This document shows positions 3,989 to 20,307 of a stretch of DNA of 34,771 nucleotides, piece by piece. The notes under the pieces were generated by a model. The model ran no database searches. It saw only the letters and a program-made list of their open reading frames with translations, and had not been told where the DNA came from. Source of the DNA: a virus. The translations under genes and the position numbers were made by a program. How positions within the stretch are numbered: position 1 is the first letter of the stretch; every line of letters starts with the position of its first letter. The stretch spans positions 1 through 34,771 of the IMG/VR virus record IMGVR_UViG_3300017724_000027. The stretch is one strand, 5' to 3'.

Positions 3989-5529
3989 TATTAAATGACC
4001 ATATAGAAGTTAAAAGAAAATTATTAGAAGGAATTAATTTAGTTGCTAATACTGTAAAACCTACACTTGGCCCACAAGCCAAAACAGTTATACTACAAGG
4101 TAATCCTCCTATTATCATTAATGATGGAGTTACTATTACAAAGTATATTTCTCACGAAGACCCTTATATTCAAATGGGGGTTCAATTAGTTCAAAACTTA
4201 GCAAGTAAAGCACAAGATAATTCGGGCGATGGAACTACTACTGCTTGTATTTTAGCACAGGCTTTTTGTAATAATTTGGTTGAGTTTGGAGAAGATAAAT
4301 CAATCCATGATTTTAATGTCTTGGTTAGTGAACTAAGAGATAAGATGATTAATCATTTAGATGAGCATGTTATTGAAGTAGATAATGATGATATTCTAAA
4401 TGTTGCTACAATAGCGGCAAACAATGACAGGCATCTTGGTAGTCTAATCAAAGGAGCAATTGATGAAGTCGGAAGAGACGGTATTATCACCGTTGAAGAA
4501 TCTAACAATTATAATACAGAAATTGAGATTAGAAAAGGTATGGAAATCAATGAAGGCTATCTAAGTCATTTGATGTGCAATACTGAAAATGGCCGTGTTG
4601 AGTTTGATAATCCATTGGTGTTTATGTCTAATGTTTCTATTAGAAAGTTTAGCGATATTATGCCACTATTGGAATTTAGTTCAGCAAACAACCGACCCCT
4701 TGTTATTTTCTGTAAAGGGTTTGATGGTTCAGCCATGAATAATTTAGTTATGAATCTTTTACAAAAGACTATTCAATGTGCAGTTGTTCTTTCACCTAAT
4801 TTTGGTGATGAACAAATAAATGAATTAGGAGATATGGCTTGTGCATTAGGTGGAAGAGTTTTTGTTGAAGAAAGCAAAGACGACCCTAAAGTTTTCACAC
4901 TTTTAGATTTAGGAACTTGTAAGAAAGTATCTATTACTAAGGAATCAACCACCTTTATTGGAACAAATGAAGAAAAACAACATGAAGTTCTAAGTAGAAT
5001 TGAAACGCTTAAGAAACAGGCGAAAGATGTTAAAGGACATGAATCATCAAGAATCAAAAGCAGAATAGCGAAACTTAGCGGTGGAGTTGCTACAATTAGA
5101 ATTGGTGCTTCTTCATCTATTGAAATGCGAGAAACTAAAGAAAGACTTGATGATGCTTTACATGCAACAAAGGCCGCATTAGAAGAAGGCATTGTTGTTG
5201 GTGGAGGAACATTATATGCTTCATTATCCAAAGACGAAACATTACCTAAATGGTTTAGAAGTTCTTTAATTAGACCAATGCTAACCTTAGTTGAGAATAG
5301 CGGAGATATAAAGTTTATAGGAGAAGTTGGTAGCGTAAGCAGTTTAGAGAATATAATTAATGTTTCTTCCGGTATGGGCTACAATGCTCTTACTAATAAA
5401 ATAGAAAACTTAGAAGAAGCAGGAGTCTTTGACCCATATAAGGTAGTTAAGAATAGTTTCTTAGCGGCATTATCAATAGCGTCTTTATTCTATTCGACAG
5501 ATGTAGCAGTATTATTACCGGAGGCTTAA
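3985..5529 (+). CDS. groL-like: Group I chaperonin, GroEL/Hsp60 type
   Basis: 514 residues aligning by eye along the length of GroEL. The equatorial ATP-site elements are present: VKPTLGPQAKTVIL (24-37), INDGVT with Asp47 (GroEL Asp52), SGDGTTTA with Asp82 (GroEL Asp87), and near the C-terminus ERLDDALHATKAALEEGIVV followed by GGG, which keeps the catalytic Asp of GroEL position 398. The hinge segment RDGIITVEES and GYLS are also GroEL-like. It is therefore group I, not the archaeal thermosome. The Gly-Gly-Met tail of GroEL is absent; the protein ends LLPEA. It should form a folding ring with the adjacent GroES-like cap, perhaps for capsid or tail proteins. The start has an AGGAGAGG signal and overlaps the previous stop. 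Confidence 0.93.
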   Translation: MILNDHIEVKRKLLEGINLVANTVKPTLGPQAKTVILQGNPPIIINDGVTITKYISHEDPYIQMGVQLVQNLASKAQDNSGDGTTTACILAQAFCNNLVEFGEDKSIHDFNVLVSELRDKMINHLDEHVIEVDNDDILNVATIAANNDRHLGSLIKGAIDEVGRDGIITVEESNNYNTEIEIRKGMEINEGYLSHLMCNTENGRVEFDNPLVFMSNVSIRKFSDIMPLLEFSSANNRPLVIFCKGFDGSAMNNLVMNLLQKTIQCAVVLSPNFGDEQINELGDMACALGGRVFVEESKDDPKVFTLLDLGTCKKVSITKESTTFIGTNEEKQHEVLSRIETLKKQAKDVKGHESSRIKSRIAKLSGGVATIRIGASSSIEMRETKERLDDALHATKAALEEGIVVGGGTLYASLSKDETLPKWFRSSLIRPMLTLVENSGDIKFIGEVGSVSSLENIINVSSGMGYNALTNKIENLEEAGVFDPYKVVKNSFLAALSIASLFYSTDVAVLLPEA

Positions 5530-5531
5530 GT

Positions 5532-5636
5532 ATGGAAAAAGAAATTGTAAGAATGACTACTGTTTATTCCGATGGTTCAATGATTATTCTTGTAAAAGAC
5601 GGGAATGTATTTAGAATTGAACGGAGGAACAAATAA
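5532..5636 (+). CDS. 34-residue beta-rich microprotein
   Basis: ATG at 5532, two bases after the chaperonin stop, running to a TAA that overlaps the next ATG by one base. It reads as alternating strands (KEIVRMTTVYSDGSMIILV, then a GNVFRIERR strand), suggesting a small beta sheet. The Shine-Dalgarno sequence is probably GGAGG inside the end of the chaperonin gene. No family recognised; the tight coupling is the main evidence. Confidence 0.45.
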   Translation: MEKEIVRMTTVYSDGSMIILVKDGNVFRIERRNK

Positions 5637-5737
5637 TGGACTGTTCAAGATGTAAAAGGCGTATAAGAACAACAGATGCTTATTATGTAAAACGGTATGG
5701 TGTATGTGAAAAGTGCATAAAGGTGATGAGAAAATGA
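5636..5737 (+). CDS. 33-residue zinc-ribbon microprotein
   Basis: Starts at an ATG overlapping the previous TAA, preceded by CGGAGGAAC. It holds two cysteine knuckles, CSRC near residue 3 and CEKC near 24, spaced as in a minimal zinc ribbon, with basic residues between them (KRRIRTTDAYYVKRYG). Its stop overlaps the next start (ATGA). It could bind nucleic acid or a protein partner; nothing more specific can be said. Confidence 0.55.
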   Translation: MDCSRCKRRIRTTDAYYVKRYGVCEKCIKVMRK

Positions 5738-9784: not shown

Positions 9785-10175
9785 TAAAGATATGTTAGTA
9801 GGAATTTTATTATCATGTGCAAAAGTTCAGTTCAAGATTATTAGAACAGATGAATTAAAGATTGGCTACAAACCGATAGTGGGTTTGAGCATAAGAGGAA
9901 CGGCTAAGTTTCTAAATGGTGTGCAACGGTCTTTGTTGCATTGGGGAGTATATTCTTCTTATCATAATGAAGAATCATCTTCAAGACCAAAGCCGATACT
10001 CTATATTAGCGGGATAATGAACCTTAAAAAAGTAATAAATAACATTCCCGACAATTTAGAAAGTCGTCAAGGGGAATGGACAACAATGGACAAGGTAGTT
10101 AAAATGTTGGTGAACAAAGAACATCTAACACAAAAAGGATTAGATAAATTATTAGAATTAAAAGGGGTTATTTAA
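9777..10175 (+). CDS. LAGLIDADG-family protein lacking the catalytic acid (likely inactive)
   Basis: 132 residues from ATG 9777 (a GTG at 9768 is also in frame). The C-terminal WTTMDKVVKMLVNKEHLTQK plus GLDKLLELK matches the hallmark end of LAGLIDADG homing endonucleases (KEHLT-x-x-G-L-x-x-(I/L)-x-x-x-K). The N-terminal LVGILLSCAKVQFKI aligns with the LAGLIDADG helix (x-x-G-L-L-x-D-G-x-I), but the metal-binding Asp/Glu is replaced (SC in place of GD). A single motif would require homodimerisation, and without the acid it probably cannot cut DNA. It may persist as a DNA-binding or regulatory protein, or be a relic of a mobile element. It sits immediately before the clamp-loader genes. Confidence 0.6.
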   Translation: MFSKDMLVGILLSCAKVQFKIIRTDELKIGYKPIVGLSIRGTAKFLNGVQRSLLHWGVYSSYHNEESSSRPKPILYISGIMNLKKVINNIPDNLESRQGEWTTMDKVVKMLVNKEHLTQKGLDKLLELKGVI

Positions 10176-11017
10176 TGGGATTAACAACAATGAATCAAAT
10201 TAGAGCAATTTTAATAACAGGCAAAATAGGAACAGGAAAATCAACTCAAGCATTAACATTAGTAAAAGAACCAATGATTGTTTTTGCTAATGATATTGAT
10301 ATTGATGTAGGTTCTTTTCCTATGGAAAATGGTATTATCATAGAAGATGTTCATTATAAACCAGATAAACAAGCAATTCTATTCATTTTAAGAAATTATA
10401 GAGGACAAATTGTATTAACTTCTATTAATGAGAAATCAGTTCCTAAAGAAATAAAAGATATGTGTCGTATAAAAAGAGCCGGTTCTTATAACTTTCTTGA
10501 AGAGTCAATTAAATCAATTGCTCCTAATTCAGAAAAACCGTTCTCTTTTGAAAGAGATACCTATTCCCTCGTAAGGGGCTACCTGAAAGAGAGAGATAGA
10601 GATTTAGTTGCTAAGTTATTAGTTTATAACAAACCTCCGGACACCCAAATAGTATCTTGGTTAAGTGAAAATATGCACCCGCATAGATTAATCTTTGTTG
10701 ATGGTGTAGTAAAAAGAAGATGGAGTCAAAAATACTTTTATGAAATGTTAGCCTATGCACATGAAGGTGGTTCTTTTGATAGATTAAATATGCCTAAAAG
10801 AAGGAAGTATTCTGTATTGCCTAAGTTAGCAAGAAGGCTTGGAGTTAAGAATCCAAGAGTCTTACGGCAACTTTGTATGGATAAGACCGTTGCTTCTCAT
10901 TTCAAAAAGAAATTAAATAACGGGGAATGTCGTTTGTTAGGCTTAGGTGAAAAAAGAAAGAGAAAAAAGACAGACCCGATAAGAGCAAAACAAACCTCTT
11001 TGGAGGACTATTTTTGA
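10175..11017 (+). CDS. RFC large-subunit-like clamp loader ATPase with C-terminal PIP box
   Basis: 280 residues. The P-loop is GKIGTGKST (16-24) and a Walker B-like strand is GIIIEDVH. A sensor-like strand, QIVLTSINEKSVP, is followed by a helical lid and a C-terminal helical region (PKRRKYSVLPKLARRLGV). The last eight residues, QTSLEDYF (273-280), are a consensus PCNA-interacting peptide (Q-x-x-L-x-x-aromatic-aromatic), after a Lys/Arg-rich stretch; archaeal RFC large subunits end in such a peptide. Together with the RFC-S-like gene 225 bases downstream it should load the PCNA-like clamp. At 280 residues it is much shorter than cellular RFC-L (about 400-500). The RFC-L assignment rests on context plus the P-loop and PIP box. 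Confidence 0.65.
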   Translation: MGLTTMNQIRAILITGKIGTGKSTQALTLVKEPMIVFANDIDIDVGSFPMENGIIIEDVHYKPDKQAILFILRNYRGQIVLTSINEKSVPKEIKDMCRIKRAGSYNFLEESIKSIAPNSEKPFSFERDTYSLVRGYLKERDRDLVAKLLVYNKPPDTQIVSWLSENMHPHRLIFVDGVVKRRWSQKYFYEMLAYAHEGGSFDRLNMPKRRKYSVLPKLARRLGVKNPRVLRQLCMDKTVASHFKKKLNNGECRLLGLGEKRKRKKTDPIRAKQTSLEDYF

Positions 11018-14805: not shown

Positions 14806-15260
14806 AGTCAATACAATGTATCGGAGTTAGTAATGAGAAAAATAATAATCAATACGCCAAAGACAACAGATGTAAAGTAATGGTAAAACAAGATTCTGCT
14901 CGCTCTAACTTATGTCAAAATCCGGAAAAAAATATGTGCTTTATGCACTGTAATTGTGCATATTGTTCTTCGGAGTATATACCAACTGTAAATAGAGGGA
15001 AGATACATAAAGATTTTGAAGAAAATAAAAAGCAAGAGGAATCTAAGTTTAGTGGCATTACATTGAAAATTATTCAAGAAGAAACTGATATAGATAAATT
15101 AAAATGTCTATTGGAGATAATTGCTAAAGAAATGCCTTTAACTACTTATTTGCGTCAAGCAAAAGAGTTATACCAAAAAAGACAAAAGAATAAATACCTC
15201 ATAGAAAAAATACAGTCTTTGGAAGTTGAAATCAACAAATTAAAAGAGGAATTAATATGA
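14802..15260 (+). CDS. cysteine-rich protein with C-terminal coiled coil
   Basis: 152 residues beginning at TTG 14802 (TTGA overlap; GAGGG at 14791-14795 lies 6 nt upstream). The first 65 residues hold clustered Cys/His (C-x6-C, then CFMHCNCAYC), probably a zinc-binding module. The C-terminal 90 residues are helical, ending in a coiled coil (NKYLIEKIQSLEVEINKLKE). This suggests a dimeric adaptor. No family recognised. It overlaps the clamp gene by four bases. Confidence 0.55.
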   Translation: MKSIQCIGVSNEKNNNQYAKDNRCKVMVKQDSARSNLCQNPEKNMCFMHCNCAYCSSEYIPTVNRGKIHKDFEENKKQEESKFSGITLKIIQEETDIDKLKCLLEIIAKEMPLTTYLRQAKELYQKRQKNKYLIEKIQSLEVEINKLKEELI

Positions 15261-16030
15261 AATTTACAATTGAAACAGATAAACTAAAAAACGGATTAGA
15301 GAGCGTTCAAGTTAAAGGAAAGGGAACAACCAATAATGGATTTGGTAATACTAATCTTGGAGCATATGCTCTCTTAGAAGTTAAGGATAATAATTTGAGT
15401 ATTTGGAATGGAAACCAAACTTTCTTTGTATCACTAACTATTCCATTAGAAGGTGAATCCGAAGAAGGAGTTTGCTGTCTTGATAGCGCAAATGTCCTTC
15501 CTTATTTGAAATCATTTTCTAATGAGATAACATTTGCAGTTGGCGATTTTATTACTATTACAAGTGGTGATTCAAAGAAGGCTTCAATACCTTTAGTTGT
15601 TAATCACCCCCAAATTGAGCCATTAACAAGAATTAAGGGAATGCTAAGTCATGTTAGATATGAAGTAAATCCGAATAGACTATGGACATTTGGTAAAGGA
15701 CAGTTTGAAACGGCATTTACTATTACACAGGCACAATTCAAAAGTGCGATTAAAACTTGTGAATTAGTTAAAAGCGGCATCTACAAATTAGATAAGAATG
15801 AAACAATAACACTTTCAACAAGACAAAGCATTACTAACAAGTATGAAGAAACGCTAACTCCGTTGTTTATTACTAATCCAAATGAAGGGGCAACTATTGA
15901 ATTTAGTAGCCCTATTTATGCTTTCTTTGAGAAAGACCAAATGTTAAACATATACATGAAAGATGAATTTCCGCTTTTAGTAGTGGCTAATGATAGAATA
16001 CTATTGAAAGCACCACATATAGGTGCGTGA
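15257..16030 (+). CDS. pcn: PCNA-like DNA sliding clamp
   Basis: 257 residues, the size of PCNA (about 245-260). It opens MKFTIETDKLKNGLESV, a strand-helix typical of clamps. The C-terminal segment MLNIYMKDEFPLLVVANDRIL followed by LKAP matches the PCNA end (x-(D/E)-x-P-L-...-(L/F)-x-AP). The middle contains TITQAQFKSAIKTCELV, as in the second-domain helix. Partner genes with PIP boxes (RFC-L-like, polymerase C-terminal half) and the RFC genes support the call. The sequence is diverged, and the interdomain connector was not resolved. It would tether polymerase, ligase and nucleases to DNA. Confidence 0.75.
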   Translation: MKFTIETDKLKNGLESVQVKGKGTTNNGFGNTNLGAYALLEVKDNNLSIWNGNQTFFVSLTIPLEGESEEGVCCLDSANVLPYLKSFSNEITFAVGDFITITSGDSKKASIPLVVNHPQIEPLTRIKGMLSHVRYEVNPNRLWTFGKGQFETAFTITQAQFKSAIKTCELVKSGIYKLDKNETITLSTRQSITNKYEETLTPLFITNPNEGATIEFSSPIYAFFEKDQMLNIYMKDEFPLLVVANDRILLKAPHIGA

Positions 16031-16036
16031 ATATTA

Positions 16037-17686
16037 ATGATAATAAGTAAGATGAATGATGGTAAAAGAATCTACAAATCATGGAGAGAGAACGGTGAAA
16101 AGAAGTTTGAAATGGTGGAAGTCAAACCTTATTTTTATGTTAAAGAAGATGAGAAAGAACCTTCCAAGTATAAGGCATCAAAGTATATTGATAGAGACTT
16201 TGAGTATATTCGTGGTGATTGGGTTAATATTGATAATGAGCCGCTAAAGAAAGTAGTTGTTGATACTTCTTTTGATATTAGAAAGGCTAAAGATATGTTT
16301 AAGAAAACCTATGAGGCTGATGTGCCTTTTCACTTTAGATATGCAGTTGATGAAGTAAAAGAAATGCCGGAGTATAAAATGCGTAAATGGTATTGGGATA
16401 TGGAATGGCAACAAGGCGGAGAACACCATGATGAGATTACTACTATTGTAGTGTATGATAACTGGGATAAGCATTATTATCAGTGGGCTTGGTTTCCAAA
16501 TGATAGGGCATTAGATACTGTTTTTGATAACGGAGTTAGATTTATTTTTGATAATGAAAAAGATATGCTTGAAAACTTTATGACAACTATGGTTGTAAAA
16601 GACCCCGATATGTTAATTGCATGGTTCGGTCATTTTGCAGATATTCCTAAGTTATTAGAAAGAACCTGCGCTCTTGGTCTTAATCCACAAATAATGTCGC
16701 CAACAGGACACATTAAAGGTATTAAGAAAAAGAAAGATAGTTTTTCCTTTGTTTATGGTGAAAAGGGCTTTAGTCCTATTGAACAACCTATTAATGGAAG
16801 AATTACTTTATCTTTAGATTTAGCATTTGAAAGACAATGGAATGATTCACAAAGAGGAACATTACCTTCTTTGTCTCTTAATTATATTGGTGAAACAGTC
16901 TTGAACAAGAACAAACTTGTCTCGGAGAAGTTTCCCGACACAAATGAATTTTATCGTAGGGCTTGGTTGGAAGATACAGAAACTTATCTTGATTATGCTT
17001 TACAAGATGTAAAGTTGATAGTTGAGATAGATGAAATGAATTATTGTAGTGAAGCAATATTATCACTACAAAGATTACTAAAAGCACCATTTGATGCTTG
17101 TTTCTATGCTTCTCACATGGGAAGTATTTATTTTATGAGAAATGCTTGGTGGAAATGCAAGACAGGAAGTAGAGTAGAGAAAAGAGAAACTTATGAAGGG
17201 GCTATGATTTATGACCCTCTAAGTGAACAAACTCAAGGATTACATCTTAATGTTGCGGCTTTTGATTTTGCAGGTCTATATCCTTCAATGATGATTGCTC
17301 GCAATATAAGTTGGGAAACTATTAGTGAAGAACCCACAGAATTTGCAGTTAATATTCTAACACCGAGAGATTTTAGCCCTGTTAAAATGAAACATATGTT
17401 GTATTTTAAAACAGATGAATTAGGTCTTTTGCCAAGAGCAGTATTAGAACTAAAAGAGTTAAGAAACGACTACAAGAAAAGAATGAAAGCCACTAATGAT
17501 AGTGGCGAGTATCAAAAATGGTATAATAATCAAATGGCAGTAAAGCGTTTAATGGCTTCATTTTATGGAATTATTGCCTTTCAAGGATTTGGTTGGGCTA
17601 ATGTTAATTTAGCGGCTTCTATAACAGCAAGTGCAAGAGAGGCTATTAGATTAGCAGCGTTTAAGGCGAAGGAGATGAAAATATGA
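16037..17686 (+). CDS. polB: Family B DNA polymerase, N-terminal part (exonuclease, motifs A and B)
   Basis: 549 residues. The 3'-5' exonuclease is intact: Exo I WYWDMEW with Asp121 and Glu123, Exo II PDMLIAWFGHFADIP, and Exo III YLDYALQDVKLI. The polymerase palm starts with motif A, FDFAGLYPSMM, with Asp410, and reaches motif B, KRLMASFYG, with Lys503 and Tyr510 (canonical KxxxNSxYG has Asn where Ala is). The chain stops after ASAREAIRLAAFKAKEMKI, just before where motif C would follow. The missing C-terminal part is a separate gene at 18491, and the two halves join without a visible loss. The stop overlaps a minigene start (ATGA). Confidence 0.93.
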   Translation: MIISKMNDGKRIYKSWRENGEKKFEMVEVKPYFYVKEDEKEPSKYKASKYIDRDFEYIRGDWVNIDNEPLKKVVVDTSFDIRKAKDMFKKTYEADVPFHFRYAVDEVKEMPEYKMRKWYWDMEWQQGGEHHDEITTIVVYDNWDKHYYQWAWFPNDRALDTVFDNGVRFIFDNEKDMLENFMTTMVVKDPDMLIAWFGHFADIPKLLERTCALGLNPQIMSPTGHIKGIKKKKDSFSFVYGEKGFSPIEQPINGRITLSLDLAFERQWNDSQRGTLPSLSLNYIGETVLNKNKLVSEKFPDTNEFYRRAWLEDTETYLDYALQDVKLIVEIDEMNYCSEAILSLQRLLKAPFDACFYASHMGSIYFMRNAWWKCKTGSRVEKRETYEGAMIYDPLSEQTQGLHLNVAAFDFAGLYPSMMIARNISWETISEEPTEFAVNILTPRDFSPVKMKHMLYFKTDELGLLPRAVLELKELRNDYKKRMKATNDSGEYQKWYNNQMAVKRLMASFYGIIAFQGFGWANVNLAASITASAREAIRLAAFKAKEMKI

Positions 17687-17784
17687 AAAGAATTAAATGT
17701 AAAAAACCATTAGCACATAACCCTCAATTTGAAGGCAAATATCATTGTAAAAGATGTGCCGTAGAACAGGAGATGAAAAAATGA
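17683..17784 (+). CDS. 33-residue zinc-knuckle-like minigene inside the split polymerase
   Basis: ATG overlaps the polymerase stop (ATGA) and has AAGGAG upstream. Reads as a basic peptide with CKKPLAH in the first half and CKRC in the second, possibly binding one zinc. Its stop overlaps the next start (ATGA). First of six coupled minigenes between the polymerase halves. No family recognised. Confidence 0.5.
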   Translation: MKRIKCKKPLAHNPQFEGKYHCKRCAVEQEMKK

Positions 17785-18008
17785 ATACCCATATTAAAAG
17801 ATGGATAGATGAATTAGTTTTATCCCTTGATATTGGCGAAGAATTTTTCGCTATGTCAATAAAAGAAAAACTAATTGAAACAAGAGGAACAAATTTTGTT
17901 TGTGATAATGCCGCTATCGGGTGGTATTTAAATAGACAAAAATATGTTGAGCCTATTAAAACAACTAAAGGAAGAAAGATTTACAGGAGGATTAAACATG
18001 AGAACTAA
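17781..18008 (+). CDS. 75-residue winged-helix-like minigene
   Basis: Starts at ATG 17781 (four-base overlap; CAGGAGATG upstream). Helical N-terminus (IKRWIDELVLSLDIGEE), then EKLIETRGTNFVCDNAAIGWY and a basic end (KTTKGRKIYRRIK), like a small winged-helix DNA-binding domain. Overlaps the next gene by 11 bases. Confidence 0.5.
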   Translation: MNTHIKRWIDELVLSLDIGEEFFAMSIKEKLIETRGTNFVCDNAAIGWYLNRQKYVEPIKTTKGRKIYRRIKHEN

Positions 18009-18171
18009 AATTGTAAGTGTAAAGGTATCGTATGATACCGAAGAAACATGGGATATTACTTTAAAAGAAGTAAAGGAGATATTTCAAATGATGAATAATT
18101 TAAAGCGTAATGCGGTCATTATTGATATTGAGCAAGGAGTGAATAAAAATGATGATGGACAAGACGAATGA
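17998..18171 (+). CDS. 57-residue minigene
   Basis: ATG 17998 follows CAGGAGG at a normal distance, a strong signal. Reads strand (RTKIVSVKVSYDTEE), helix (LKEVKEIFQMMNNLK), strand (AVIIDIEQG) and an acidic tail. Unknown. Overlaps the next minigene by 23 bases. Confidence 0.5.
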   Translation: MRTKIVSVKVSYDTEETWDITLKEVKEIFQMMNNLKRNAVIIDIEQGVNKNDDGQDE

Positions 18172-18280
18172 ATTATTAGAAGAATTGCTGGCTATGATAG
18201 CAAAATCAAATAAGATATTAATGATGGTAAATATCGTGAACATAGCGACCATTATAACAATTATGACGGTGATAGTATGA
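18149..18280 (+). CDS. 43-residue single-pass membrane minigene
   Basis: ATG 18149, with AAGGAGTG upstream. A helical N-terminal half (KTNELLEELLAMIAKSNK) is followed by a hydrophobic stretch of about 19 residues (ILMMVNIVNIATIITIMTV), a likely transmembrane helix at the C-terminus. A holin or membrane-tether role cannot be judged from sequence. Overlaps the next gene (ATGA). Confidence 0.4.
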   Translation: MMMDKTNELLEELLAMIAKSNKILMMVNIVNIATIITIMTVIV

Positions 18281-18348
18281 ATAAAGATAAAGAATTAAAA
18301 GAACTAAAAAATAAGATAGCAGTTTTAGAGCAAAAGATTAGAGGCTAG
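18277..18348 (+). CDS. 23-residue coiled-coil minigene
   Basis: ATG 18277 overlaps the previous stop (ATGA) with GGTGATAGT upstream; ends at TAG. Lys/Glu/Leu-rich with a heptad-like pattern (KELKELKNKIAVLEQK). Very short, so the call rests on the coupled start and the surrounding array. Confidence 0.3.
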   Translation: MNKDKELKELKNKIAVLEQKIRG

Positions 18349-18357
18349 GAGAGAGAC

Positions 18358-18486
18358 TTGGATTATATTGTAGAGAATAGCCCCGATTTAGGAATGATAA
18401 AATATTGTATTGAAGAATTACAAGAAGAAGTTGCTAAGTCAGCAAAGCAACCTGTTGGAATGTTATTTACTCGCATAAAGAGATGA
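18358..18486 (+). CDS. 42-residue minigene with TTG start
   Basis: TTG 18358 follows AGGAGAG (18347-18353) closely. Helical (LGMIKYCIEELQEEVAKSAK) with a basic end (MLFTRIKR). Four non-coding bases separate its stop from the polymerase C-terminal gene. Not recognised; it does not look like missing polymerase sequence. Confidence 0.35.
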   Translation: MDYIVENSPDLGMIKYCIEELQEEVAKSAKQPVGMLFTRIKR

Positions 18487-18490
18487 TATT

Positions 18491-19381
18491 ATGAAAGTAG
18501 TTTATGGGCATACGGATTCTATTTATGTTCAAATAGATTCTGTTGAAAAAGCGCAGACGGCTATCAAGGAGATAGAAGAAAGCGTAAGAGAACATTTTCC
18601 AAATGTTATGGGGTTAGATGAACACCCCGTAGTATTGGAGTTTGAAAAGTATTTTTCAGCATTAGGCGTTGGAACTGTTAGAAACAGAAATGCAGGTTTA
18701 GTATCTTGGGAAGATGGAGAATGGCTTGATGAGCCTAAATTCAGCATGACCGGATTTACTGCCAAAAGAGTTAGTGAAACTAAGTTGGCTAAAGAAGTTC
18801 AAACAGATGTATTAAAAATGTGGGTGAACCAAAATTCACAGGCACAAATAGTCCAATATCTGCATAATAAATATGCAGATGTTTTAGATGGTAATTTAGG
18901 ATTAACGCCTCTTATTAAAAGAAGTAGATTGAGAACTAATAGACTCATGGTTAAATGTCCGGATTGTAATGCTAAATATCATCTAAAAGAATGTTTAGAA
19001 TTAGAGCATTCTGTATGTAGTAAATGCGCTACACATACAAAGAAATTCACAACTCTTGAAGGTAAAAAACCAACAATAGGTTCGGGTATCGCAGGAGTTA
19101 TTTATGCTTGGAGTAAAGATACGGAATTTGATGATTCCTATATCTTTATGAAAGTATTAAACAATAGTGAGTATTATATTCACCCTTTAACAAAGGAAAG
19201 AAAAGTAGTTGAGTATGTATCATGCACAACTGCGAAGGAGTTTGAGGGTTGTAATCCCGACCTCAAGCACTATGCCGAGCAGGTAATAAAGAAGGCCGAG
19301 CCTATTTTTAGTGCTATGGCATGGGATTTAACATCAATAAGAACGGGAACAATACAAAGAAGTTTGGAGGAATGGTTTTGA
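18491..19381 (+). CDS. polB: Family B DNA polymerase, C-terminal part (motif C, thumb, PIP box)
   Basis: 296 residues starting MKVVYGHTDSIYV, which is motif C at the very N-terminus. The first motif Asp is His7 (YGHTDS rather than YGDTDS), while the second, Asp9, the main metal ligand, is kept. Thumb sequence follows (TGFTAKRVSETKLAKEVQTD). Cys pairs CPDC (156, 159) and CSKC (176, 179) form a zinc ribbon in the thumb region. The last eight residues QRSLEEWF (289-296) are a consensus PCNA-binding peptide. The two polymerase chains must assemble for activity. Start: ATG 18491 with a weak AGATGAT signal. Neither an intein nor missing sequence is seen at the junction. Confidence 0.92.
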   Translation: MKVVYGHTDSIYVQIDSVEKAQTAIKEIEESVREHFPNVMGLDEHPVVLEFEKYFSALGVGTVRNRNAGLVSWEDGEWLDEPKFSMTGFTAKRVSETKLAKEVQTDVLKMWVNQNSQAQIVQYLHNKYADVLDGNLGLTPLIKRSRLRTNRLMVKCPDCNAKYHLKECLELEHSVCSKCATHTKKFTTLEGKKPTIGSGIAGVIYAWSKDTEFDDSYIFMKVLNNSEYYIHPLTKERKVVEYVSCTTAKEFEGCNPDLKHYAEQVIKKAEPIFSAMAWDLTSIRTGTIQRSLEEWF

Positions 19382-20307
19382 ATAAAGATGAAAAATATAA
19401 AGCAAGAATAGCAAGTATGCAGGATTTTACATATAAATGGGAATGGGAAAATTTTGATGACCCATCTAAACCAATATTGAAGATTAGTAAATCTTCTTTA
19501 GGTTCATTTAATTGGTGTCCTAAAAAGTATCAATTTAATTATATTGAGAGAAGGCCACAAGACCAAACCGAAGCCATGCGTAAAGGAACGGTATTACATA
19601 ATCATCGTGAAGATTTCTTTAATGTTTTTGATATTAAAAAGGCCGAGAATATGAATAATAGTGAAGTCTTAGAATATTGCACAAGTCTAATGCCTGTTGA
19701 TGATTATTTTGACATTACACTAAATGTAGCGGCATTTGAAGCACAACGATTTATTGAAGCAAAATCAGAAGAGAAACTACATGAGTTTCTTCCTATTGTT
19801 AATGAAGAAATGTTTGATACAGAAATAGTTATTCCAATTGGCCCATATAAAGGCGGAGCATGGAATAATTATCAAGAATTTACTCTTAACAGACCATATA
19901 CGGTTAGACTTCAAGGTATTATTGATAGAATATTTATAGAGAATGGTAATTTAATTCCTTTTGAATATAAAACAGGAGGTTGGAAAGATTACAAAACAAC
20001 TTCTATGCGTCAAGAAATGGCTTTTTATCAACTAATGATAGAGAATTGTAGTGAAGAAGTTTTGGCTAAACATGGTTTAAACAAAGATATGAAGGTCACT
20101 CATTGGGGTTGGTATTATCCTGCGGCTAATCATATTACAGTTGAAGAAGTAAAGAAAAGGTCTATGTCTTCTGTTAAATTAAATATTGCTAAACTGATAA
20201 AAGCATATGAAATAAAAGAATTTACACCAACTTTCTTTTACAAGATGTGTTCTTCATGCTCTTATTTTGGTATTTGTCCTGCGGCACAAGAAGATACATG
20301 GGGTTGA
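19378..20307 (+). CDS. Cas4/RecB-like PD-(D/E)XK exonuclease with Fe-S cysteines
   Basis: 309 residues from TTG 19378, a TTGA overlap with the polymerase stop lying 7 nt after GGAGG; ATG 19372 is only 1 nt from that signal. The Cas4/RecB hallmarks are present: Cys47 in NWCPKKYQFNYI, an RKGTVLHNHRE helix, the nuclease core LQGIIDRIF (Asp) and IPFEYKTGGW (Glu-x-Lys), QEMAFYQLMIE as the Q-motif helix, and a C-terminal C-x2-C-x5-C (MCSSCSYFGIC). The four Cys should hold a 4Fe-4S cluster. In viruses such nucleases resect DNA ends for recombination or replication; an adaptation role is unlikely because no CRISPR array or Cas1/2 is near. Confidence 0.85.
   Translation: MNKDEKYKARIASMQDFTYKWEWENFDDPSKPILKISKSSLGSFNWCPKKYQFNYIERRPQDQTEAMRKGTVLHNHREDFFNVFDIKKAENMNNSEVLEYCTSLMPVDDYFDITLNVAAFEAQRFIEAKSEEKLHEFLPIVNEEMFDTEIVIPIGPYKGGAWNNYQEFTLNRPYTVRLQGIIDRIFIENGNLIPFEYKTGGWKDYKTTSMRQEMAFYQLMIENCSEEVLAKHGLNKDMKVTHWGWYYPAANHITVEEVKKRSMSSVKLNIAKLIKAYEIKEFTPTFFYKMCSSCSYFGICPAAQEDTWG

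Follow-up and report, generated by a model that had tools for sequence, protein, structure and literature searches.

Organization of the locus

We examined the family B DNA polymerase (PolB) encoded in a stretch of viral DNA of 34,771 nucleotides (nt), the whole of which is referred to here as the window (IMG/VR virus record IMGVR_UViG_3300017724_000027). The window is a fragment of a magrovirus, a marine archaeal virus of Poseidoniales, and its polymerase is encoded by two genes, PolB-N and PolB-C, which are separated by 804 bases. An earlier note on this DNA had described a genuine split of PolB around six coupled open reading frames (ORFs) of 33, 75, 57, 43, 23 and 42 amino acids (aa). The features of the locus are listed below.

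16037-17686, plus strand: PolB-N, 549 aa; N-terminal domain, exonuclease, first part of the palm and fingers (motifs A and B); ends in ...AFKAKEMKI and the stop codon; Pfam DNA_pol_B and DNA_pol_B_exo1
17670-17687, plus strand: Shine-Dalgarno (SD) and stop/start element AGGAGATGAAAATATGAA, first exact copy
17683-17784, plus strand: minigene A, 33 aa, cysteine-rich, zinc-ribbon-like by eye; its start overlaps the PolB-N stop as ATGA
17768-17785, plus strand: SD and stop/start element AGGAGATGAAAATATGAA, second exact copy (end of A, start of B)
17781-18008, plus strand: minigene B, 75 aa from an inner start within an 84-aa frame; winged-helix-like by eye
17998-18171, plus strand: minigene C, 57 aa from an inner start within a 75-aa frame; conserved
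18149-18280, plus strand: minigene D, 43 aa, near-invariant, single-transmembrane (TM) peptide; hydropathy maximum 2.2
18277-18486, plus strand: minigene E, coiled-coil-like; 69 aa in relatives, but broken by TAG at 18346-18348 in the window copy
18491-19381, plus strand: PolB-C, 296 aa; second part of the palm with motif C (YGHTDS), thumb, CxxC-containing insert and a C-terminal PIP-box-like QRSLEEWF; Pfam DNA_pol_B

The N and C genes are as the note described them, and the same split was found in all relatives that could be judged. All six ORFs are present as well, but the 23- and 42-aa ORFs belong to one gene, E, whose frame is open in the near-identical relatives L003 and L004, the TAG being private to the window; there are therefore five minigenes, not six. 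Over 9.6 kb, the differences between L004 and the window are the stop base in E and two bases at the edge of the L004 contig. The SD and stop/start element occurs in two exact copies in the window, where none would be expected, and clear SD motifs precede the 33-, 75-, 57- and 43-aa ORFs, in agreement with the SD-led minigenes of the note.

Position and completeness of the junction

Both halves of the polymerase are full, collinear and catalytically furnished, and the break between them is a normal operon boundary, often an ATGA stop-start overlap. The exonuclease and motifs A, B and C of a family B polymerase are all encoded, with DNA_pol_B_exo1 and DNA_pol_B found in PolB-N and DNA_pol_B in PolB-C; the DNA_pol_B profile matches each half on its own, over profile positions 38-212 and 217-347, respectively. 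When the halves are aligned with the unsplit PolBs of HRTV-27 (811 aa), Natronorubrum (818 aa), L445 (859 aa) and L446 (853 aa), the end of PolB-N and the start of PolB-C fall on adjacent columns and no column is lost, which bears out the earlier statement that nothing is missing. The unsplit homologues aligned at the junction were haloarchaeal; a search for close unsplit magroviruses in genome contigs returned one split contig and three unsplit haloarchaeal PolBs.

AlphaFold2 models of the two chains, with a mean predicted local distance difference test score of 74.2 for PolB-N and 78.5 for PolB-C, together cover the whole PolB fold. Residues 1-549 of PolB-N align with 6wyb, a KOD-type polymerase, over residues 2-533 of the latter (Z 26.9, root-mean-square deviation 3.4, 477 aligned residues), and residues 1-284 of PolB-C align to residues 534-756 of KOD 4k8z (Z 12.8, root-mean-square deviation 5.6, 211 aligned residues). 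In terms of the fold, the polymerase is divided between the palm helix on the finger side and the strand that carries motif C. From the junction it is six residues to the serine of YGHTDS and nine to the end of that motif. The earlier note had the insertion abut motif C, where PolB inteins typically sit; it is indeed close to the motif-C intein site, but not at it.

The operon character of the boundary is evident across relatives. In locus L482, the two halves overlap by ATGA in different frames (5600-5700) with zero inserted genes. The PolB-N stop lies inside ATGA in 100 of 144 loci, and PolB-C starts as ATGA in 133 of the 144. The median gap is 4 nt between the upstream gene and PolB-N (n = 140), 814 nt between the two halves (n = 144) and 28 nt between PolB-C and the nuclease gene that follows (n = 129). 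A separator made of minigenes, as the note had envisaged, is thus not needed, since the halves of L482 overlap by 4 nt without an inserted gene.

Three side observations concern the polymerase itself. Motif B reads KRLMASFYG (window 17540-17580), and this motif and motif C (18503-18520) vary little or not at all across 39 and 37 aligned magrovirus sequences; KRLMASFYG departs from the usual motif B in that the usual Asn is replaced. The CxxC-containing insert lies in the thumb region of PolB-C (window 18950-19030) and has two invariant Cys residues and one nearly so (37 sequences). In the deep-branching magroviruses L171 and L201, PolB-N carries a Cys-rich insert before motif A.

Generality and age of the split

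A scan with PolB-N gave 522 related stretches, 80 of which were kept, and a scan with PolB-C gave 84. The 136 fetched loci with both halves represent 86 distinct junctions, the window's own among them, or 85 without it. In all junctions of the window's clade, PolB-N closes as AxKE[ML].. and the sequence resumes at motif C. The contig L443 (NZMJ01000151.1), the PolB-N of which is 56% identical to that of the window, is also split and provided the route into a sister clade, where 68 of 81 loci hold both halves; these represent 59 distinct junctions, all broken at the same residue. Thirteen of the 81 were set aside, 11 because the record has no PolB-C (the contig ends earlier) and two because PolB-N is incomplete. 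L443 is a magrovirus contig filed in a Maricaulis metagenome bin, presumably by a binning error.

Independently of PolB-N, a scan for DNA encoding VYGHTDSIY matched at least 120 stretches, and the polymerase was split in all 118 loci examined; 9 of the 80 loci that were checked for PolB-N have none in the record. All 26 virus records searched whole have their PolB matches in separate N and C genes. One of them, G015 (IMGVR_UViG_3300021958_000021, 184,733 bp), holds two complete split PolB sets at about twice the magrovirus size and is perhaps two joined genomes. No unsplit magrovirus PolB was met among the relatives examined. Judging from these sequences, the split is shared throughout the magrovirus relatives examined, predates the common ancestor of those sampled and has persisted since. 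It is hence not peculiar to this contig and has already been drawn as PolB-NTD/CTD (PMC10768690).

The two halves have been inherited largely together (Spearman 0.88, 144 loci). Exchange does occur: L061 and L068 share 98.1% DNA identity as far as the PolB-N stop and about 69% beyond it, the identity of L097 and L148 also breaks at the PolB-N stop, and that of L506 and L502 at the PolB-C start. Half swapping was considered as a trait special to the split and rejected. Discordant pairs (at least 93 versus at most 78% identity) number two at the boundary of the upstream gene and PolB-N, four between the halves and two between PolB-C and the nuclease, and an excess of exchange at the split is therefore not demonstrated.

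A conserved minigene cassette in the window's clade

Hidden Markov models built from the gap ORFs were used on the 85 distinct related junctions, the window's own copy being excluded. Minigenes C and D were each found in 84 of the 85, E in 82 and B in 63, always in the order of the window, and none of these four models matched outside the gap within the fetched flanks. Both C and D are absent from L061. Relatives of minigene A, clustered by single linkage, occur in 32 of the 85 gaps. The ratio of nonsynonymous to synonymous differences (pN/pS) is below 1 for the minigenes in every identity bin, namely 0.11-0.36 for C, 0.07-0.18 for D, up to 0.73 for B and up to 0.76 for E, and B and E evolve much faster than D. 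Database comparisons yielded no Pfam match for A, no Pfam or PHROG match for B and no significant Pfam or PHROG family for C; for D there was no Pfam or PHROG family at E <= 0.01 and no tblastn match in 50,697 phage records. The single match of C in the phage records is at chance level, and tblastn found no PolB-C in phages.

D is more conserved than the polymerase between distant relatives. Among 73 loci having PolB-N, PolB-C, C and D, the distant ones show 86-87% identity in D versus 69-77% in PolB-N, with pN/pS of 0.16-0.18 versus 0.25-0.33; among close relatives the conservation of the two is about equal. Twelve chosen D variants are 76-98% identical to the D of the window. Three scans for C or D gave 205 loci, in overlapping sets and with many on the same contigs, and 203 of these have a PolB half on the expected side; the exceptions are a 279-bp locus and a chimera-like contig. 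In usable records D never lies away from PolB. A T5-like phage contig, L223, which carries C-D-E after a DnaB-like helicase gene, was considered as an independent context for the cassette and was not counted: its relatives carry another ORF there, and the switch lies near nt 5035 (L223:5035-5488) in an A-rich stretch common to both sides, so that it is read as a chimeric or recent recombinant contig. C-D-E became fixed in the window's clade, which suggests a function tied to replication, and the three genes probably work with it.

Contents of the gap in other relatives

The gap is the variable boundary of the locus. Its length ranges from -4 nt (L482) to 2819 nt across relatives and from 424 to 2819 nt in the window's clade. 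In the sister clade, it holds ORFs encoding a 28-aa zinc-ribbon-like peptide, 30- and 34-aa peptides, and 38- and 68-aa TM-like peptides, chained by ATGA overlaps; one or two such short ORFs account for the gaps of 79, 82, 85, 168 and 180 nt. The tree underlying these comparisons came from a short search without bootstrap, with outgroups at a great distance (branch length 5). None of B, C, D and E occurs in any of the 33 sister-clade rows of the tree set, D is missing from one of 47 rows of the window's clade (L061), and the D-bearing rows are paraphyletic in the tree as drawn. With the rooting outgroups so distant, C-D-E may represent either a gain by the window's clade or a loss by the sister clade. 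The nearest tree neighbours of L482 carry inserts, and its empty state is therefore best read as a clean loss or as independent gains around it.

Neighbouring genes

The halves of the polymerase lie beside archaeal-type replication genes and GroEL, as in the split PolB of magroviruses. By Pfam, the window encodes an RFC-like AAA ATPase, an ATP-dependent ligase, an ERCC4 nuclease, Cpn60 and a PD-(D/E)XK nuclease. The immediate neighbours are as follows.

15257-16030, plus strand: 257-aa gene directly 5' of PolB-N; putative sliding clamp, so labelled after a published magrovirus gene list
19366-20307, plus strand: PD-(D/E)XK or Cas4-like nuclease directly 3' of PolB-C (PDDEXK_1, E = 4.9e-16)

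For the 257-aa gene, neither a Pfam match nor a PDB sequence match of note was obtained in support of the clamp identity. A PIP-box-like motif closes 135 of the 136 C-halves with a readable end. Adjoining the RFC-like gene, a gene without a Pfam match (window 10175-11017) also has a PIP-box-like end, QTSLEDYF.

A probable two-chain polymerase with a variable internal boundary

We consider it highly probable that this magrovirus has a two-chain, B5-type family B polymerase, the ancient split of which has been kept, with small genes coming and going at its internal gene boundary. Conservation lends strong support to the two-chain polymerase, whose assembly and activity are predicted. Coupled re-initiation would carry ribosomes from PolB-N across the minigenes to PolB-C, both chains would fold together into one polymerase, and the PIP-like tail of PolB-C may tether it to the clamp. 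Zinc ribbons, TM peptides, winged helices and HNH and GIY-YIG-type endonucleases would be collected and shed at the stop-start overlaps of the break, because this boundary between genes is of the ordinary kind and falls within an essential transcription unit. Since the halves of L482 simply overlap at ATGA, no insertion is required to maintain the split, and this locus together with the changing inserts leads us to read the minigenes as entrants into a pre-existing gene boundary. They would be passengers or partners of the split, not its keeper, with a fixed cassette in the window's clade in which the parts of membrane peptide and coiled coil may fall to D and E, respectively.

Several observations weigh against this explanation. 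The SD motifs ahead of E and PolB-C look weak by eye, and E is interrupted in the window record itself. Three of the 59 sister-clade gaps have a single 28-aa zinc-ribbon-like ORF only and L482 has none; no type of minigene is therefore universal, which weakens an essential role for them. AlphaFold2 confidence is low at the expected packing surfaces (PolB-N 512-549; PolB-C 5-9, 59-66 and 86-94), and the models therefore locate the break but do not prove that the chains assemble. As no unsplit magrovirus was found, an unsplit ancestor within the group cannot be seen.

Alternative explanations

The strongest alternative, which we regard as possible though not favoured, is that a mobile endonuclease of the HNH, GIY-YIG or another type entered the gene ahead of motif C, divided it and maintains the split, and was later lost or replaced by minigenes, as proposed for the split genes of T4-like phages. 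An endonuclease gene is absent from the break in the window and present in some relatives: HNH and T5orf172/MUG113 clusters lie in the gap, each in four loci, with weaker endonuclease matches in L043 and L127 and weaker HNH and endonuclease VII-like matches. A target beside a catalytic motif is typical of homing genes (PMC2988022). Nevertheless, endonucleases are missing from most gaps (34 representatives stand for the clusters of the 91 non-BCDE gap ORFs of at least 70 aa, and three of them have HNH, T5orf172 or Rep Pfam matches), those present are scattered over the tree and could be later arrivals, and the split stands in L482 without an insert. The 3' end of PolB-N is repeated inside the gap at p <= 2/301 in 14 of 143 cases, and the mean best match is 15.05 of 24 versus 14.27 in shuffled gaps. 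We rejected this direct repeat at the insert ends as an insertion trace: it is significant in those 14 gaps only, and the repeated end consists of SD and ATGA, so that a shared translation signal alone can explain it. Separately, the gap of one magrovirus relative (L503:5410-5751) holds a CRESS-type Rep domain (Viral_Rep, E = 4.4e-17).

A more speculative reading, to which we give a rather low probability, makes D, with C and E, dedicated partners of the two-chain polymerase that would be made by the same coupled ribosomes and tie the replisome to the membrane, the sister clade filling the slot with unrelated short TM or zinc-ribbon peptides. The position of D between the halves in every usable record and its above-PolB conservation in distant relatives point this way, as do the 41 of 59 sister-clade gaps that hold an ORF with a TM-like stretch, a count made with no chance control. 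On the other hand, 18 of the 59 fall below the hydropathy cut, some hold only a zinc ribbon, L482 is empty and L061 has lost C and D. A membrane role for D would be a guess from one hydrophobic stretch.

It seems unlikely that the halves are regulated separately, with PolB-N alone acting as an exonuclease or decoy while the polymerase awaits the delayed translation of PolB-C after the minigenes. The exonuclease is wholly in PolB-N and motif C wholly in PolB-C, and the gap length would tune the output of PolB-C; that length, however, varies from -4 to 2819 nt across relatives.

Erratic loss of a motif-C intein that left two genes is quite unlikely, although such an origin has been proposed for the split PolB3 of Methanobacteriales (PMC4104785) and the junction is within ten residues of motif C. 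It lies upstream of YGHTDS rather than within it, with zero residues missing or added, and no intein-bearing magrovirus PolB was met. In agreement with the note's rejection of an intact intein, no Hint or intein domain was found at the break: none of the 34 gap-ORF representatives of at least 70 aa and none of the window minigenes belongs to an intein family, the shorter ORFs of the relatives not having been scanned.

The chance of an assembly error or sequencing frameshift is practically nil, as the note had also held for a frameshift; the window is a metagenomic contig and the in-frame stop in E is private to it relative to L003 and L004, but independent contigs from many samples show this architecture too, as does a published map, which excludes a local assembly error for the split.

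Among possible origins of the break, we rank a small frame change making ATGA first, a lost endonuclease second and a lost intein third.

Relation to known systems and significance

The map legend of the Aoguangviridae in the profile of the International Committee on Taxonomy of Viruses names PolB-NTD and PolB-CTD (PMC10768690); the split itself was therefore already known. This family resembles the window in virus order, two-gene polymerase, GroEL and replication genes, but the gap, the minigenes and the junction are undescribed in the text of its profile. No description of the gap content was met in the portion of the magrovirus literature searched, a coverage without Philosof 2017, Zhou 2023 and Prabhu 2025. 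The split is thus known, and the C-D-E minigene cassette is apparently undescribed.

The likeness to split phage genes drawn by the note is fair in kind. Gene 43 of Aeromonas phages 25 and 44RR (43A/43B) is likewise a two-gene family B replicative polymerase from a tailed virus, and PMC2988022 reports that the chains of the phage 25 split gp43 co-purify and polymerise; this is a working precedent for a two-chain polymerase. The break in 44RR nevertheless occupies another position, ahead of motif B at about RB69 residues 511-519, with a 49-nt spacer and no conserved minigene cassette. In nrdA of Aeromonas phage Aeh1, a gene break also leads to a two-chain enzyme, with a mobile endonuclease between the parts (same source), but the enzyme is another one and the mobE insert is the separator. 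Among archaea, PMC7776575 and PMC4104785 describe a PolB in two polypeptides in Methanobacteriales (Methanothermobacter), although this is a cellular PolB3 with a proposed intein-loss origin. Nanoarchaeum equitans also has its PolB in two genes (PMC4104785), but these carry trans-splicing intein halves, of which none was seen in the magrovirus gap.

The magroviruses thus offer a natural and abundant set of two-chain replicative polymerases, with gaps from -4 to 2819 nt, in which one may ask how a split essential gene persists over the long term and how an operon acquires and sheds small genes where stops and starts overlap. Since the halves have sometimes been exchanged between lineages, the interface between them may be tolerant. 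The 43-aa TM peptide D is a promising lead to some unknown step in how archaeal viruses replicate.

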